This document shows positions 35,971 through 43,686 of a stretch of 48,417 nt of DNA, piece by piece. This stretch comes from Arcticibacter svalbardensis MN12-7 (GTDB lineage: Bacteria; Bacteroidota; Bacteroidia; Sphingobacteriales; Sphingobacteriaceae). Location: assembly GCF_000403135.1 (NCBI RefSeq), contig NZ_AQPN01000071.1, forward strand, positions 1 through 48,417. The letters run 5' to 3'. Position 1 is the stretch's first letter. Each line of letters starts with the position of its first letter. A model generated the notes under the pieces. That model had not been told where the DNA came from, made no database searches, and saw nothing but the letters and a program-made list of their open reading frames with translations. The translations under genes and the position numbers were made by a program.

Positions 35971-35999
35971 CAAAGTTAAAAGTAAAGTTGGAACCTCAA
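35971..35999 (-). promoter_or_regulatory. Promoter of the GT2-sigma-rsmG-dprA operon
   Basis: On the minus strand TTG (35999-35997), an 18-base spacer and TAACTTTG (35978-35971) match the Bacteroidota consensus exactly. The expected start is near 35964, 16 bases ahead of the GT2 ATG. It interleaves with the tgt promoter. Confidence 0.8.
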
Positions 36000-36016
36000 T
36001 CAAATTCTTACCTTTG
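35988..36016 (+). promoter_or_regulatory. Promoter of tgt
   Basis: TTG (35988-35990), an 18-base spacer and TACCTTTG (36009-36016) match the Bacteroidota consensus. The expected start is near 36023, so tgt has almost no leader before its ATG at 36027. This also rules out the upstream TTG at 35988 as a start codon, since it is the -33 box. Confidence 0.8.
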
Positions 36017-36026
36017 CGTGTTTAAA

Positions 36027-37157
36027 ATGAAATTCAAACTAGAGGCAAGTGATAAATTTTCGAAGGCAAGAGCTGGAGAAATCAGTACCGATCATGGTAC
36101 CATAAAAACACCCATTTTCATGCCTGTAGGCACTGCAGGGTCGGTTAAAGCCGTCCATCAGCGGGAACTTAAGGATGATATTAAAGCACAGATTATTCTG
36201 GGAAATACGTATCATTTATATTTAAGGCCAGGGTTAAATACACTGGAAAAAGCGGGTGGATTGCATAAATTTAATGGATGGGATGGTCCAATTCTCACGG
36301 ATAGTGGCGGATATCAGGTATATTCTCTTTCAGATGTACGGAAAATCAAAGAAGAGGGCGTAACTTTTCGCTCGCATATTGATGGCTCCAAACATTTGTT
36401 CACTCCGGAGGTTGCCATGGATATCCAACGTGTTATTGGCGGTGATATCATCATGGCTTTTGATGAGTGTACACCCTACCCATGCGACTACAATTATGCA
36501 AAGAAGTCTATCGATATGACTCATCGCTGGCTGAAGCGCTGTTGCGACCGGTTTGATACGACCGAGCCCAAATATGGGTATTCACAAACCCTTTTCCCCA
36601 TCGTACAAGGCTCTGTATATAAAGATCTGCGGATTAAATCTGCTGAAGCCATTGCTTCATTTGAGAGAGAAGGAAATGCTATTGGAGGTCTCTCTGTAGG
36701 TGAACCTGCAGAAGAAATGTATGCCATGACAGAACTTGTATGCGGCATTCTTCCTGTTGAAAAGCCCCGTTACCTGATGGGAGTAGGCACACCTGTCAAT
36801 CTTTTAGAGAATATTGCCCTTGGTATTGACATGTTCGATTGCGTTATGCCAACCAGGAATGCCCGAAATGGCATGCTTTTTACCAAAAACGGGATCATGA
36901 ATATGAGGAATGAAAAGTGGAAAAACGACTTCTCTCCTATTGAAGCGGACAGTGAGCTGTTTTCCGATTTGGTTTATAATAAAGCATATTTGCGTCATTT
37001 AATCACGTCAAAAGAAATACTTGGCGCACAAATTGCAACACTTCACAATCTGCATTTCTATTTATGGCTGGTAAATGAAGCCCGTGAAAAGATTATTTCA
37101 GGTGAATTTTATGACTGGAAGAAGAAAATGGTAATCCAATTAGCTCAACGTTTATAA
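36027..37157 (+). CDS. tgt: tRNA-guanine transglycosylase
   Basis: A 376-residue enzyme that exchanges guanine-34 of tRNA for preQ1 on the way to queuosine. The start is ATG at 36027 (MKFKLEASDKFSKARAG), fixed by the promoter. Motifs: SGSVKAVHQREL-like TAGSVKAVHQREL, TDSGGYQVYSL, MAFDECTPY with a catalytic Asp, GGLSVGEPAEEMY and DMFDCVMPTRNARNGMLF with the nucleophile Asp. The C-terminal zinc site is absent: where CxCxxC is expected the text is EADSELFSDLVYNKAYLRHL, with no Cys. I believe Bacteroidota Tgt commonly lacks it. It begins a rightward unit with an LptF/G permease. Confidence 0.95.
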   Translation: MKFKLEASDKFSKARAGEISTDHGTIKTPIFMPVGTAGSVKAVHQRELKDDIKAQIILGNTYHLYLRPGLNTLEKAGGLHKFNGWDGPILTDSGGYQVYSLSDVRKIKEEGVTFRSHIDGSKHLFTPEVAMDIQRVIGGDIIMAFDECTPYPCDYNYAKKSIDMTHRWLKRCCDRFDTTEPKYGYSQTLFPIVQGSVYKDLRIKSAEAIASFEREGNAIGGLSVGEPAEEMYAMTELVCGILPVEKPRYLMGVGTPVNLLENIALGIDMFDCVMPTRNARNGMLFTKNGIMNMRNEKWKNDFSPIEADSELFSDLVYNKAYLRHLITSKEILGAQIATLHNLHFYLWLVNEAREKIISGEFYDWKKKMVIQLAQRL

Positions 37158-37161
37158 GAAA

Positions 37162-38250
37162 ATGAATAGATACATCAAGATTATAGATTGGTATATCATC
37201 AAGAAGTATCTGGGTACTTTTGTATTTACCTGTGCTATTTTTACGGTAATCATTGTAATTTTTGACGTCTCCGAAAAGCTGGATGATTTCCTGAAACATT
37301 CGGCTCCATTCTATAAAATTGTATTTAATTATTATGCCGGGTTTATTCCTTTTTATCTCAATTTCCTTTGGCCCTTAATCAACTTCCTTGCCGTAATTTT
37401 CTTTACGGCAAAGATGGCCGATCAAACAGAAATAGTCCCTATTTTAAGTGGAGGATTTAGTTTTAACCGGTTCTTATGGCCTTATTTTGTCGCCTCATTT
37501 ATCCTTTTCAGCATTAGTTTTGTAGCCAATATCTATGTCATACCGCAAACAAATAAGCTGATGATCGGCTTTGAAAATGTATATATTAAGCCTGCAAACA
37601 ATGACTCTAAGGCGGAAACACATATGCAGATTGATAAAAACACATTGGTCTTTATCAAAAATTTCGACAATGTGCAGAAAGTAGGGTATACCTTCATCAT
37701 GGAGAAGTTTAATGGCGATATACTAGTAGAAAGACTTATGGCTGACCGGATTACATGGGATTCCGTTCAAATGAAGTGGAGAATTGATAACTACTCTATC
37801 CGGACCATAAACGGACTTAAAGAAACCATGACATCCGGTATTAAAAAGGATACCACACTGGATATGAGACCTGTTGACTTTGCTGTATACGACAATATTT
37901 ATTCGGCTATGTCTACATCCGAGCTCTCAGAACGGATTAAAAAAGAAAAGACCAGGGGAACAGGAGTGATGCAGCTCTTACAACTGGAAAAGTATAAGCG
38001 CTTCGTAAACCCTTTATCAGCCTTCGTTTTAACCCTCATGGGAGTCTCTCTGTCCTCTCGAAAGGTACGTGGAGGTATAGGATTACATTTAGGGGTCGGA
38101 ATCTTTCTAAGCTTCGCTTATATCTTGTTTATTCAATTTGCAACTATGTTTTCTTTAAAGGGAGGATTACCTCCTCTCCTTGCTGTATTTATCCCTAACA
38201 TCGTGTTTGGTGCTCTCGGTGTTTATCTCTTGTTTAAAGCGCCCAAATAA
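37162..38250 (+). CDS. LptF/LptG family permease
   Basis: A 362-residue inner-membrane subunit of the LPS export transporter (YjgP/YjgQ family). Pattern: IIDWYIIKKYLGTFVFTCAI at the start, then PFYLNFLWPLINFLAVIFFT, a periplasmic beta-jellyroll (about 140-260) and C-terminal spans GVSLSSRKVRGGIGLHLGVG and LPPLLAVFIPNIVFGALGVY. It has about six spans, as expected. It lies four bases after tgt, the usual tgt-lptG pairing in this phylum. I cannot tell LptF from LptG; it may serve both roles. Confidence 0.93.
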   Translation: MNRYIKIIDWYIIKKYLGTFVFTCAIFTVIIVIFDVSEKLDDFLKHSAPFYKIVFNYYAGFIPFYLNFLWPLINFLAVIFFTAKMADQTEIVPILSGGFSFNRFLWPYFVASFILFSISFVANIYVIPQTNKLMIGFENVYIKPANNDSKAETHMQIDKNTLVFIKNFDNVQKVGYTFIMEKFNGDILVERLMADRITWDSVQMKWRIDNYSIRTINGLKETMTSGIKKDTTLDMRPVDFAVYDNIYSAMSTSELSERIKKEKTRGTGVMQLLQLEKYKRFVNPLSAFVLTLMGVSLSSRKVRGGIGLHLGVGIFLSFAYILFIQFATMFSLKGGLPPLLAVFIPNIVFGALGVYLLFKAPK

Positions 38251-38254
38251 AAAC

Positions 38255-39163
38255 ATGCCATTTTTTTCTCGTAATCGAAATCTTCTTATCCTCCATGGAA
38301 CAGTACTCGTTTGGGGTTTCACAGGTATCCTTGGAGCACTTATTAACCTTTCTGCAGTACACCTCGTTTGGTATCGTGTTATCATCGCTTTTGTTACTTT
38401 ATTCATCTATTTTAAGGCCACAAGGACATCCATCAAGCTACCGGGAATAACGCTGTTGAAACTGTTTTTTACGGGTGCTTTGGTAGGCAGTCACTGGATC
38501 TTATTCTTCCAGGCCATCAAGAGTTCCACCATCTCTGTAGCCCTGGTTTGCCTCTCCGCACTGACCCTCTTTACTGCTATTTTAGAACCCTTTATAAGTC
38601 GCAAAAAGATCTCTAAACTGGAGATATTTACCGGCCTTTTAATCATCTCCGGAATCATTTTAATCTTCAAATTTGAGACTAAATATACCCTTGGAATATC
38701 CCTCGGATTATGTAGTGCATTCTGTGCAAGTTTGTTCTCCATTATCAACTCCCGACAGGTACAAAAGCACCCTGCAAGCCTCATCAGTTTCTATGAAATA
38801 GGAGGGGCAATTGTTTGGATTTCGCTGTATCTTTTGATCAGCGGAGGCTTCAATTCTTCCATGAAACTGCACAATTCTGACCTGATTTATCTGTTGATCC
38901 TGGGGATCATTTGTACCTCTGTAGCCTATGTTGCCGGGGTCTCTGTGATGCGGGAACTGTCGGCTTTTCGTGTTGCCCTGATCACCAACCTGGAGCCCGT
39001 TTATGGCATCATGTTAGCCTTCCTTTTCTATGGTAAAAAGGAACACATGACCCTTGGTTTTTATACTGGGGCAGTCATCATTTTGAGTGCGATTTTCATC
39101 TTTCCTTATCTTAAAAACAAGATTGAAAAGCATCGGATCGATAAATTATTGCCGCAGGTTTAA
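38255..39163 (+). CDS. DMT-family transporter (EamA)
   Basis: A 302-residue exporter-type membrane protein. I take ATG at 38255 (MPFFSRNRNLLILHGTVLVW), four bases after the permease stop; the longer frame overlaps it. About ten spans form two EamA repeats: FTGILGALINLSAVHLVWYR in the first and SVMRELSAFRVALITNLEPV, with YGIMLAFLFYG, in the second. Likely exports a small metabolite such as an amino acid; substrate unknown. It ends the tgt unit; a 1-kb gene-free stretch follows. Confidence 0.9.
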   Translation: MPFFSRNRNLLILHGTVLVWGFTGILGALINLSAVHLVWYRVIIAFVTLFIYFKATRTSIKLPGITLLKLFFTGALVGSHWILFFQAIKSSTISVALVCLSALTLFTAILEPFISRKKISKLEIFTGLLIISGIILIFKFETKYTLGISLGLCSAFCASLFSIINSRQVQKHPASLISFYEIGGAIVWISLYLLISGGFNSSMKLHNSDLIYLLILGIICTSVAYVAGVSVMRELSAFRVALITNLEPVYGIMLAFLFYGKKEHMTLGFYTGAVIILSAIFIFPYLKNKIEKHRIDKLLPQV

Positions 39164-40214: not shown

Positions 40215-43082
40215 GTGATACTATTGATCTTTTTTAACAAACATATAAAACTACTATTCAGCTTTTTATTCATATTTAGTTTAACTATTTTAACAGGTAA
40301 GTTAAATGCACAAGTATTCGACTCAGAGCAAAATCCACCTTCCATAAAATGGCGACAAATTAATACCGAATATCTGCAGGTAATCTACCCCATGGAGCTG
40401 GAGTCAGAGGCCCAACGGATCCTCTCCGTTCTTGAAGCCATTATGGTCAGGGAGCGAATCTCTATTAAAGCCCGGCAAAAGAAGATCTCCATCATATTGC
40501 AAAACCAGGGCACTACCGCTAATGGATTTGTGCAACTAGCACCTCGTCGTTCGGAGTTTTACACCACCCCTTCCCAAAGCTTCGACTTCCAAAGCTGGCT
40601 CAATAGTCTGGCTGTACACGAGATGCGACACGTGATCCAGTTTGACAAACTGACAGGTAAGCTCAACGCCCCTTTTTTTGAAGAACTTGCCCTCGCTATA
40701 TTTGGCATTACCCTTCCCCCCTGGTTTTACGAAGGGGATGCAGTAGGTATGGAAACCGCACTAACGGATGCAGGTAGGGGAAGGATTCCAGAGTGGAGCA
40801 ATATCCTTCGGGCAAACACATTGAGTCAGCGAAACTTCTCCTACTCCAAGAACTACCTCGGATCATTAAAAGACTTCACACCCGGATACTACCAGCTCGG
40901 CTACTTCATGACCAGCAAACTCCGAAAAGACTATGGGGCCAACATTATGGACTCGATCTACTCAACCATGACCCGGAACCCGCTAAGGCCCTACAACCTC
41001 AGTCGTGCTATTCATAAAATAACCGGTATGAATACCCGTCAACTGCACGACGCCACCATCAAAGAACTTCAGGATCTATGGCAGGCACAGGCCGATCAAT
41101 CTAACCCAATAGACTACCCCAGCATTAACAAAAGGAAAACGAATACACCCGAGAACTACAACCTCCCTCAACCAGTAGCAGGCGGCAACATTCTTGCCCT
41201 GAAACAGGGCAAAGCCAGCGTTCCCAAAATAGTCCTCATCACGCCAGAAGGCAAAGAAAAAAAGATCCTAAATATAGGCGCCCAAGAGCTCCCATGGTTC
41301 AGCTATGGAGGGGGCAAAATTACATGGGATGAGTACCGCTCTGATGCCCGCTTTCACCAACGCTCTTTCAACGTCATCAACGTCTATAACCTGACCACAA
41401 AAAGGGCCAGACAGATCACACATAAAACCCGGTTATTTTCCCCTTCATTATCTCCGGACGGCAAGCGAATCATTGCCGTTTCTGTCTCCTATTCCAATCA
41501 AATTTTACTGGTGGAATTTGATCCTGAAAATGGACGGGAGCTGAAGCGATATGACAGTCCCGATAACAACATGCTGCAGATGCCATCCTTCAATCCGGAC
41601 GGCTCTAAAGTTGTGGTTGTGGGTGTAAATGATAGCGGCAAAACGATCTATGAACTGGATACAAAAACGGGCACTTTTACCTCCCTCCTACCCTTCCAGT
41701 TGCAGGAGATCCTTCGTCCCGTTTATGGCAATCAGGACATTTTCTTCAAAGCACACTACAACGGAACCGATAACATTTACCGCTTTAATTTAACAGACAG
41801 GCAAACTTATCAGGTTACATCCGATAAAATCGGCGCATATAACCCCTTCTACGACACGATCTCAGGGCGTTTAACCTTCAACACCTATACTGTATTCGGA
41901 CACGATATAGCGGCTCTAAATACGAAATCTCTTTTAAATAAAAACATAAACACCCTCGAAAGTCATTTTGTAGATTATGGTGCCAAAGCCCAGGAGCAGG
42001 AAGGCAACAACAATGTACTGCAAAATGTGAATTACAAAACCTATCCCAGCCGCAAATACAGGGAATGGAGCAACCTGTTTTACTTCCACAGCATCATCCC
42101 CATTGTGGAGGACAATGCCTATTTCGACGACTCCAATTTTGGTATCGAACTCCAGTCAGATAATAAATTGAACACCATGAGCTTTTATACCGGCTACCAG
42201 TTCAATAACGCTTTGCAGAAAAGTGAATACCTGGCCGGTTTTGCCTATAAAAGATTCTTCCCTATTTTCAGTGTCAACTATACAAACAGGCCACGATTAA
42301 TATATCGGCAGACAACTGTCAATAAGGTCACCACTTACAGTCCGGTTACCTGGCGCGAAAATGAAATTAAAGCCGAGATGACCATCCCGTTCAACTTCAA
42401 CCGCTTCAACCATTCCTACAGTCTGGGTTTAAAAACCGGAACCAGTTTCACCAATCGCTATGACGTTGAAAACGGAATGACTTCGCTCATCACCCGATTA
42501 AATTTCCCCATGCATTATCAGTTTTATGCCTCTCATAATACGAGGCGAAGCTCAAGAGACCTGGCACCAAAATGGGGACAGAACTTCAGCTTCCTCTATC
42601 GGCATTTCCCTTTTGAGGATCAGGTAAAAGGAAAACTATTTTCAGCAAAGAGCACTTTCTATTTTCCTGGCCTTGCAGAAAATCATTCTTTTGCGGCAAG
42701 CTTCAATTTTCAGGATGGCGATGGCAGTTACCAAAACTCGGTAGACATTCCCAGGGTATCCGGCTACAGCTTCCTGACCCCAATAGGCAACACCAACAAT
42801 ACGCTGCTGCTGGATTACCGGCTCCCACTCTTTTATCCCGATTTTGCCATTGGCCCCCTCGCCTACATCAAACGGATTCAAGGAGGTTTATTTAGCGACT
42901 TCGAAAACATCGGCAAAGGGAAAAGTTTTTCTCCACGGTCTTATGGAGCAGAACTTCGTGCAGATGTGAACATACTTCGTTTTTTTCTTCCTATTTTTAA
43001 CTTTGGTGGAAAAGTTGTATTTTTAAATGAGAAACCACATCGTAATCCCGTATTCGAAACTATTGCAACCTATAGCTTTTAA
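40215..43082 (+). CDS. Surface metallopeptidase-like/propeller/beta-barrel protein
   Basis: A 955-residue exported protein with a GTG start and a signal peptide ending LTGKLNAQ (residue about 32). Residues about 45-300 look like a gluzincin (peptidase MA-like) domain: SLAVHEMRHVIQFDKLTG has the HExxH zinc motif near residue 134, and PPWFYEGDAVGMET supplies a possible third Glu ligand. Residues about 310-600 show TolB/PD40-like blades (FSPSLSPDGKRIIAV, MPSFNPDGSKVVVVG). From about 640 the text alternates aromatic beta strands (SNFGIELQSDNKLNTMSFYT) and ends in ETIATYSF, an outer-membrane barrel-type terminal Phe. So I infer an outer-membrane barrel carrying a periplasmic or surface protease-propeller head. 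Substrate unknown. Separate promoter not found. Confidence 0.8.
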   Translation: MILLIFFNKHIKLLFSFLFIFSLTILTGKLNAQVFDSEQNPPSIKWRQINTEYLQVIYPMELESEAQRILSVLEAIMVRERISIKARQKKISIILQNQGTTANGFVQLAPRRSEFYTTPSQSFDFQSWLNSLAVHEMRHVIQFDKLTGKLNAPFFEELALAIFGITLPPWFYEGDAVGMETALTDAGRGRIPEWSNILRANTLSQRNFSYSKNYLGSLKDFTPGYYQLGYFMTSKLRKDYGANIMDSIYSTMTRNPLRPYNLSRAIHKITGMNTRQLHDATIKELQDLWQAQADQSNPIDYPSINKRKTNTPENYNLPQPVAGGNILALKQGKASVPKIVLITPEGKEKKILNIGAQELPWFSYGGGKITWDEYRSDARFHQRSFNVINVYNLTTKRARQITHKTRLFSPSLSPDGKRIIAVSVSYSNQILLVEFDPENGRELKRYDSPDNNMLQMPSFNPDGSKVVVVGVNDSGKTIYELDTKTGTFTSLLPFQLQEILRPVYGNQDIFFKAHYNGTDNIYRFNLTDRQTYQVTSDKIGAYNPFYDTISGRLTFNTYTVFGHDIAALNTKSLLNKNINTLESHFVDYGAKAQEQEGNNNVLQNVNYKTYPSRKYREWSNLFYFHSIIPIVEDNAYFDDSNFGIELQSDNKLNTMSFYTGYQFNNALQKSEYLAGFAYKRFFPIFSVNYTNRPRLIYRQTTVNKVTTYSPVTWRENEIKAEMTIPFNFNRFNHSYSLGLKTGTSFTNRYDVENGMTSLITRLNFPMHYQFYASHNTRRSSRDLAPKWGQNFSFLYRHFPFEDQVKGKLFSAKSTFYFPGLAENHSFAASFNFQDGDGSYQNSVDIPRVSGYSFLTPIGNTNNTLLLDYRLPLFYPDFAIGPLAYIKRIQGGLFSDFENIGKGKSFSPRSYGAELRADVNILRFFLPIFNFGGKVVFLNEKPHRNPVFETIATYSF

Positions 43083-43085
43083 CCT

Positions 43086-43382
43086 ATGAAAGTCAAAACC
43101 ATTTTCATCATTCTGATCACTGCATTGGTAACTATCATTTTAATGAACAATACCGAAGAAATTGATATGTGGATCTTTGGCGTTAAACGAATTTCCAAGC
43201 TTTATATATTTGCAGCTGTCTTCCTTGCCGGGTTTAGTGTAGGTGCCCTTGCCATGCGTTCCCGCAAAAAGGTCATTGTACCTGATGAAGAAAAAGAATA
43301 CCCGGAGGAGGATGAAAACCAACCCCTAACGAACGTATACCGCGGTAAACTAAGCGACGAAGACCGCGATTATATCAGCTAA
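43086..43382 (+). CDS. Small LapA-like membrane protein
   Basis: A 98-residue protein with two spans (IFIILITALVTIILMNN and LYIFAAVFLAGFSVGALAM) and an acidic cytoplasmic tail (PDEEKEYPEEDENQ). The layout resembles the LapA/DUF1049 family, which works with LPS-assembly scaffold LapB in other bacteria. It starts three bases after the surface protein gene, so it is cotranscribed. A tie to the envelope fits both neighbours but is inference. Confidence 0.7.
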   Translation: MKVKTIFIILITALVTIILMNNTEEIDMWIFGVKRISKLYIFAAVFLAGFSVGALAMRSRKKVIVPDEEKEYPEEDENQPLTNVYRGKLSDEDRDYIS

Positions 43383-43395
43383 CCGCTTTCCTCTC

Positions 43396-43426
43396 TTGTT
43401 ATTCACAAAGCAAAGGCCTACATTTG
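43396..43426 (+). promoter_or_regulatory. Promoter of the B12 uptake cassette
   Basis: TTG (43396-43398), a 20-base spacer and TACATTTG (43419-43426) match the Bacteroidota consensus. Transcription would begin near 43433, at the edge of the cobalamin riboswitch. Confidence 0.8.
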
Positions 43427-43429
43427 TAC

Positions 43430-43600
43430 GCTTTTGGTTCCCAATTCTTGATTGGGATTAAAAGGGAATCTGGTAAAATTCCAGAACTGTCCCGCAGCTG
43501 TAAGCTCTATAACTAAGGTACACATGTAGTGTCACTGTCCGCTCCGGCGGATGGGAAGACCGTACCATTAGGGAGTAAGTCAGAAAACCTGCCATCGCAT
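43430..43600 (+). promoter_or_regulatory. Cobalamin riboswitch (AdoCbl/B12 element)
   Basis: Conserved core segments are in order: GGTTCCCAATTCTTGATTGG, GGGAATCTGG with the paired ATTCCAGAACTGTCCCGC, the GCAGCTGTAAG block, and the B12 box GTCAGAAAACCTGCC near 43579-43593. It sits between a strong promoter and the btuB-type receptor, so binding of a cobalamin should shut down receptor and lipoprotein synthesis. The expression platform is probably the 100 bases up to the ATG at 43707, including a hairpin over the start region. Confidence 0.95.
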
Positions 43601-43686
43601 TATAGATTCATAGCTTTCGGGGATTGAAGCTGGAATGAAAATACCAATGGTGTATTTCCATTTTATCGTATTCTCTATGCCGTTTG

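Follow-up and report, generated by a model that had tools for sequence, protein, structure and literature searches.

The window, by which we mean the whole stretch of 48,417 nucleotides of Arcticibacter svalbardensis MN12-7 that was analysed, contains at 40215..43082 (+) a gene with a GTG start that encodes a protein of 955 aa, and its homologues are similar in length. The chain begins with a predicted signal peptide (residues 1-33, 40215..40313 (+)), which has a cleavage site of the KLNAQ-V type as judged by eye, lacks a lipobox Cys and was modelled as a helix at residues 2-26. It is followed by a gluzincin-like (Peptidase MA type) head at approximately residues 43-305 (40341..41129 (+)), a TolB-like beta-propeller at approximately residues 314-569 (41154..41921 (+)) and a predicted 16-stranded outer-membrane barrel of Omp85 type at approximately residues 626-955 (42090..43079 (+)). 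A search of the host's own genome with the protein at E 0.001 matched no locus besides 40215-43082. The full-chain AlphaFold2 model, made with 19 sequences, has a mean pLDDT of 77.4 and a pTM of 0.77, and presents a head of strands and helices, then a propeller of 23 strands, then the barrel. A sequence-only reading had proposed that a zinc-protease-like head, a TolB-like propeller and a C-terminal barrel are joined in one chain, and on this conservation, profile comparison and predicted structure agree.

The stop codon lies at 43080-43082 and, three bases further on as had been noticed, another gene starts at 43086. It encodes a LapA-like envelope protein of 98 aa (43086..43382 (+)) with two TM segments by eye; 13 of 16 homologues of this small protein match LapA_dom weakly, with E-values up to 1 and 0.0015 at best, and the window copy is unmatched. 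The LapA-like gene comes next in 18 of the 20 close loci, the other two being L011, which ends 379 bases on, and L021, which has no match. It was also found in two further genomes with the family, at L024 (also represented by L079) and at L025, and is absent from the other 14 of 15 larger distant loci as well as from L026 and L027. The adjacency is hence conserved in close relatives, where the LapA-like gene is a probable operon partner, but not beyond them.

Upstream, at 35988-39163 (+), lie tgt (identified by eye), a gene for an LptF/G-type permease and an EamA transporter gene, in an order that 17 or 18 of the 21 close loci share. A part in LPS transport, considered on account of the LptF/G-type neighbour, was set aside: among the farther loci, with which L082, having lost its anchor, was not counted, the permease is near the window family only in L079. 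On the other side a cobalamin riboswitch (43418-43610 (+), Rfam RF00174, 106.6 bits) precedes a BtuB-like receptor gene and a gene for a DUF5074 propeller.

The protease-like head

The predicted metal-binding and catalytic motif HEMRH occupies residues 135-139 (40617..40631 (+)) and YEGDA residues 172-176 (40728..40742 (+)), with Glu173 as probable third metal ligand. Both motifs had been picked out beforehand and are present, but the first His had been numbered 134, which is one off. In an alignment of 29 family members (A2), which reaches down to 24% identity to the window protein, 34 columns are invariant; 25 of these fall in the head (263 residues), two in the propeller (270 residues), six in the barrel (330 residues) and one near the signal peptide. 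Invariant in 29/29 are H135, E136, R138, H139, E173, G174, D175 and A176, as well as GRGR at residues 187-190 (40773..40784 (+)), which stands shortly after the helix bearing Glu173, in a loop modelled with low confidence. The alignment holds 29 of 50 family sequences (the window protein, L002-L022 and L024-L051); those omitted are mostly near relatives and all retain the motif. A smaller alignment (A1) has 19 rows and leaves out L004 (93% identical) and L008, and a third (A3) leaves out L062, which is cut at the contig start, L064 being a repeat of L034.

The HExxH, which had been expected to be conserved if the head is a protease, is indeed conserved in homologues: together with the downstream Glu-Gly it is kept in 70/70 loci (L002-L071), corresponding to 67 distinct relatives upon removal of the repeats L022 (identical to L002) and L064 and of the window's own gene, L023. 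A strict pattern recovers the pair in 66 loci; L058, L060, L063 and L068 show it on direct reading. By way of control, 46 of 20000 shuffled versions carry HExxH with E-G/A 20-65 residues on. Judged by this sequence conservation, the conserved head columns are what a working active site would show, as opposed to a chance motif.

The structural model places HExxH on a helix (125-147) and Glu173 on the following helix (169-183), with a strand (112-116) that includes the invariant Glu114 ahead of them. The model is least certain in the head, where pLDDT values are 45-86 in ten-residue blocks and below 50 for residues 100-108, 152-154 and 187-190. With an E-value limit of 1, Pfam returned no match of the window protein to Peptidase_MA_2, Peptidase_M48 or any other peptidase, and the head profile matched no solved structure by sequence. 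In this the protein differs from Peptidase_MA_2 proteins and other gluzincins (clan MA), with which it shares the HExxH and the Glu on a following helix, and to which profiles link it by way of relatives that Pfam does recognise. These are the TH relatives, a sister family with Peptidase_MA_2 and PD40 matches. Compared by hhalign, the window-family head matches theirs with a probability of 99.5, and the full-length profiles match with a probability of 100 over 893 columns, with HExxH and EG in register; the distance from His to Glu is 38-42 residues in the window family versus 60 in the TH sisters. A weak match of the head to NCBIfam flagellinolysin (E 7e-4) is a hint only. On the strength of these alignments and of the model, the head is a probable zinc protease domain of gluzincin type.

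Propeller and barrel

The propeller comprises 23 modelled strands in approximately six blades, and the SPDG and NPDG motifs that had been noted lie within its region. It accounts for the matches in a fold search with the full chain. With VIA-align it superposes on TolB with Z 23.9 and rmsd 3.0 over 243 aligned residues. An identity as TolB equivalog was rejected, since TIGR02800 gives a partial match of 54 bits, far under its cut-off of 343.

The C-terminal part is rich in beta strands and ends in Phe, as had been read from the sequence, and its predicted structure is a barrel. Modelled on its own (residues 606-955, pLDDT 82.0) it shows 16 long strands. The best 41 Foldseek matches listed are BamA/BAM, TamA, CdiB, FhaC or TOC complex entries and the 42nd is BtuB, the TM-scores by query of 0.30-0.57 among the matches listed denoting loose superposition. 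With VIA-align all 50 matches listed are BamA/BAM, TamA, FhaC, CdiB, TOC or SAM entries, again loosely superposed (rmsd 4.0-6.9 among those listed), the best being BamA of F. johnsoniae (Z 17.6, rmsd 5.2, 292 aligned). Some of the chains matched within these Omp85-type complexes are presumably those named.

By sequence the link is less direct. There is no Pfam Omp85 match in the window protein, searches of its own genome with the Omp85_2 and Omp85 profiles miss the gene at 40215-43082, and the barrel profile matched no solved structure by sequence. Direct hhalign comparison of the window barrel with four Omp85 barrels from its own genome is weak (probability 4.8). The window-family barrel does match the TH barrels (95.4), and these match the own-genome Omp85 barrels (94.1); controls with a TonB-dependent receptor, a SusC-like barrel, shuffled columns and reversed sequences stay at or below 0.7. 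Sequence support for Omp85 ancestry thus needs the TH sisters as a bridge, and the predicted fold supports it directly. IPRVSGY at residues 845-851 (42747..42767 (+)) aligns with RGY in relatives (the majority residues of the 29-sequence alignment), at a position which we take to be that of the Omp85 loop-6 motif. The same genome also encodes Omp85-barrel proteins with large N-terminal parts at L075 and L076 (contigs C12 and C86; open frames of 1216 and 943).

Among described Omp85 groups the closest in plan is WD40-Omp85, which has a TolB-like propeller and is likened to a BamA-BamB fusion in the sections on that group by Heinz and Lithgow 2014 (PMC4104836). Both there and in the window protein a propeller most like TolB precedes an Omp85 barrel; compared by description, the difference is that those sections mention no protease head (PMC4104836). 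The 'Metallo' group of the same authors is defined there by PF00149, a domain different from the window head (PMC4104836).

This likeness raises the alternative that the protein is an insertase or translocase akin to TamA or BamA, in which the propeller replaces BamB, the HExxH head is zinc-stabilised or regulatory and proteolysis is secondary. The predicted Omp85-type barrel and the cited BamA-BamB comparison are in its favour; set against it are the joint invariance of Glu136, both His and Glu173 in 29/29 sequences while barrel and propeller drift, and the lack of any POTRA match to the window protein in Pfam at E 1. Subfamilies without POTRA do count as accepted members of Omp85, as stated in part of the same account (PMC4104836). 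We consider this reading unlikely.

What is known is the WD40-Omp85 kind of protein, to the extent of the sections cited; what appears new is a gluzincin head on a propeller-barrel chain, of which no description was found in the open literature searched. No account of the three-part protease-propeller-barrel design was found in the open subset of PubMed Central, outside which most subscription papers and preprints lie.

Relatives, the TH sister family and type IX secretion

A scan of named genomes yielded 20 loci, mostly from Sphingobacteriaceae or Sphingobacteriales by title. The nearest named relative is that of Arcticibacter eurypsychrophilus (93% identical); those of Daejeonella, Olivibacter, Pedobacter, Paradesertivirga and others are 46-56% identical over the best segment, and one from Prolixibacteraceae 29%. 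In the taxonomic family of the host, 190/201 genomes were matched at E 1e-10, mostly once each, including 180/186 good assemblies and the small genomes G399 and G420 (1.7-1.8 Mb, 99% completeness). The 11 family genomes that gave no match are six of g181 and two of g189, both of them small-genome groups, one of g176 (60% complete) and two of g5.

A 19-sequence profile matched 162 of 395 Bacteroidota genomes at E 1e-10. We read the 38 genomes with matches of at least 287 bits as holding the window's own protein family; the weaker matches that were fetched belong to two further protein families. The head motif takes the form HExRH in the window family, and elsewhere HE[FY]TH or HEFVH with the Glu 60 residues on, or HELVH. 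The sequence-only reading had called the combination of protease and barrel unusual, which the matches in 190 family genomes contradict, as do relatives across the phylum that share the head motif: the same three-part design recurs widely across Bacteroidota.

The host itself has a second three-part protein, found by a Peptidase_MA_2 search on contig C44 (L117:870-4112 (-), 1080 aa), with a signal-like start. It carries HELVH and W-M-V-E-G, scores above the cut-offs of both PD40 and Peptidase_MA_2 in Pfam, shows by eye the RGY and F-D-I-G that mark Omp85 barrels, and matches the TH alignment with a probability of 99.8 over 755 columns. Its relatives occur in 226/395 Bacteroidota genomes at E 1e-30, many of them matching in the first half only, and the head motif is kept in 20/20 loci fetched.

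Each of the 12 aligned TH proteins matches PD40 and Peptidase_MA_2 of Pfam at E 0.01; for one of them there is also a weak match to Omp85_2. The label TH is to be read loosely, since L110 has HELTH and L113 HELVH; L099 and L096 hold the genes already listed as L060 and L061, and have HEFTH and WFAEG. We inspected 24 TH loci, drawn from the profile match list with neighbours not known beforehand; the set is not exhaustive and some flanks stop at contig ends. PorV and an M6-like protein, the T9SS-dependent M6-like inactivated metalloprotease of NCBIfam NF052323, are neighbours in 19/24 (L092, L093, L095-L097, L099, L101, L103-L111 and L113-L115), PorU in 16/24 and a DUF5683 protein in 20/24. The names of the neighbours rest on L092 and L093, where PorV passes the NCBIfam cut-off in both and PorU in one of the two, both PorU copies being cut by the locus end; at the remaining loci neighbours are tblastn matches to the proteins of these two. 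The TH sister is on this evidence a candidate partner of type IX secretion (T9SS), and its place next to PorU and PorV makes it a concrete candidate for T9SS work. No account of a TH gene within a PorU-PorV cluster was found in the PubMed Central open subset.

This clustering of the TH sister with PorV, the M6-like protein, PorU and DUF5683 invites the reading that the window protein is itself an accessory protease of T9SS, the more so as SprA, present in 303/395 Bacteroidota genomes, is found in 35/38 of those with the window family. Against it, relatives of PorU, PorV, M6 or DUF5683 occur beside the window family in 0/35 loci (15 + 20) within the flanks covered, and two genomes with the family, G002 and G359, have no match to SprA, PorU or PorV, PorU being a soft test. 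A third, G269, has the family and lacks SprA but has weak PorU and PorV matches. The absence of PorU alone means little, because G000, a genome with SprA and PorV, likewise gave no PorU match. With neither a gene cluster nor strict co-occurrence, a T9SS role was set aside for the branch of the window protein, for which we deem it highly improbable.

Topology and proposed role

The sequence-only reading spoke of a surface protein. Bacteroidota place much on their surface. According to part of PMC12578637 most of the Bacteroides BAM complex lies outside the cell, and this, with the surface-rich habit of the phylum, the signal-peptide-like start and the outer-membrane barrel, would agree with a surface-displayed protease whose barrel carries or threads the head outside. 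However, the barrel is predicted to be an Omp85-type one, and the N-terminal parts of such proteins are periplasmic in the known cases. These include the enzyme-bearing PlpD, likewise a hydrolase ahead of an Omp85 barrel, whose enzyme was found by experiment to be periplasmic, against an earlier view of display, in the passages on its topology (PMC11116518). PlpD is described there as a patatin-like lipase with a POTRA domain and without a propeller (PMC11116518), which sets it apart from the window protein, where head and propeller together put more than 500 residues ahead of the barrel, a further point against display. We consider display at the surface very unlikely. Omp85 proteins of known topology have their N-terminal part in the periplasm, which is where the head of the window protein probably works; by this analogy head and propeller probably both lie there.

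The explanation that we regard as best, at somewhat better than even confidence, is that of a periplasmic metalloprotease anchored in the outer membrane. The protein would be exported by its signal peptide and the Omp85-type barrel would anchor the chain in the outer membrane, with the gluzincin head and the TolB-like propeller placed in the periplasm on the model of Omp85 topology. Less certainly, the head might trim or degrade clients that pass through, or are stalled at, outer-membrane assembly. This may correspond to the job of BepA at BAM in E. coli, here carried out by one chain with an Omp85 barrel of its own.

The M48 proteases BepA, LoiP and YcaL have, to our knowledge, no barrel or propeller. 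What they have in common with the window protein, as read here, is that they are zinc proteases tied to outer-membrane protein assembly (PMC8423444, PMC13067283, both in part). BepA is described in the same parts as a zinc-dependent peptidase with clients at the BAM complex and with an edge strand beside the active site (PMC8423444, PMC13067283). By analogy with BepA, the window protein may serve in the quality control of outer-membrane clients or in their processing.

A wider and more tentative proposal, which we think has less than an even chance, is that the window protein belongs to a phylum-wide class of outer-membrane proteases of Bacteroidota, with gluzincin and TolB-like propeller on an Omp85 barrel, so that the counterparts of BepA, BamB and BamA would be united in one chain. 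The barrel seam would recruit clients and the head would cut them, and the HExTH-type branch may have become a genetic partner of T9SS. How outer-membrane assembly is policed in Bacteroidota is poorly known, and a protease fixed to its own barrel would offer a single-gene handle on it; few functions are assigned to the non-canonical Omp85 groups (metalloprotease, WD40 and patatin), according to the sections on them in PMC11116518. As for M48 proteases in the host, PF01435 has a single match in its genome at E 0.001, to a different gene with an open frame of 268 residues.
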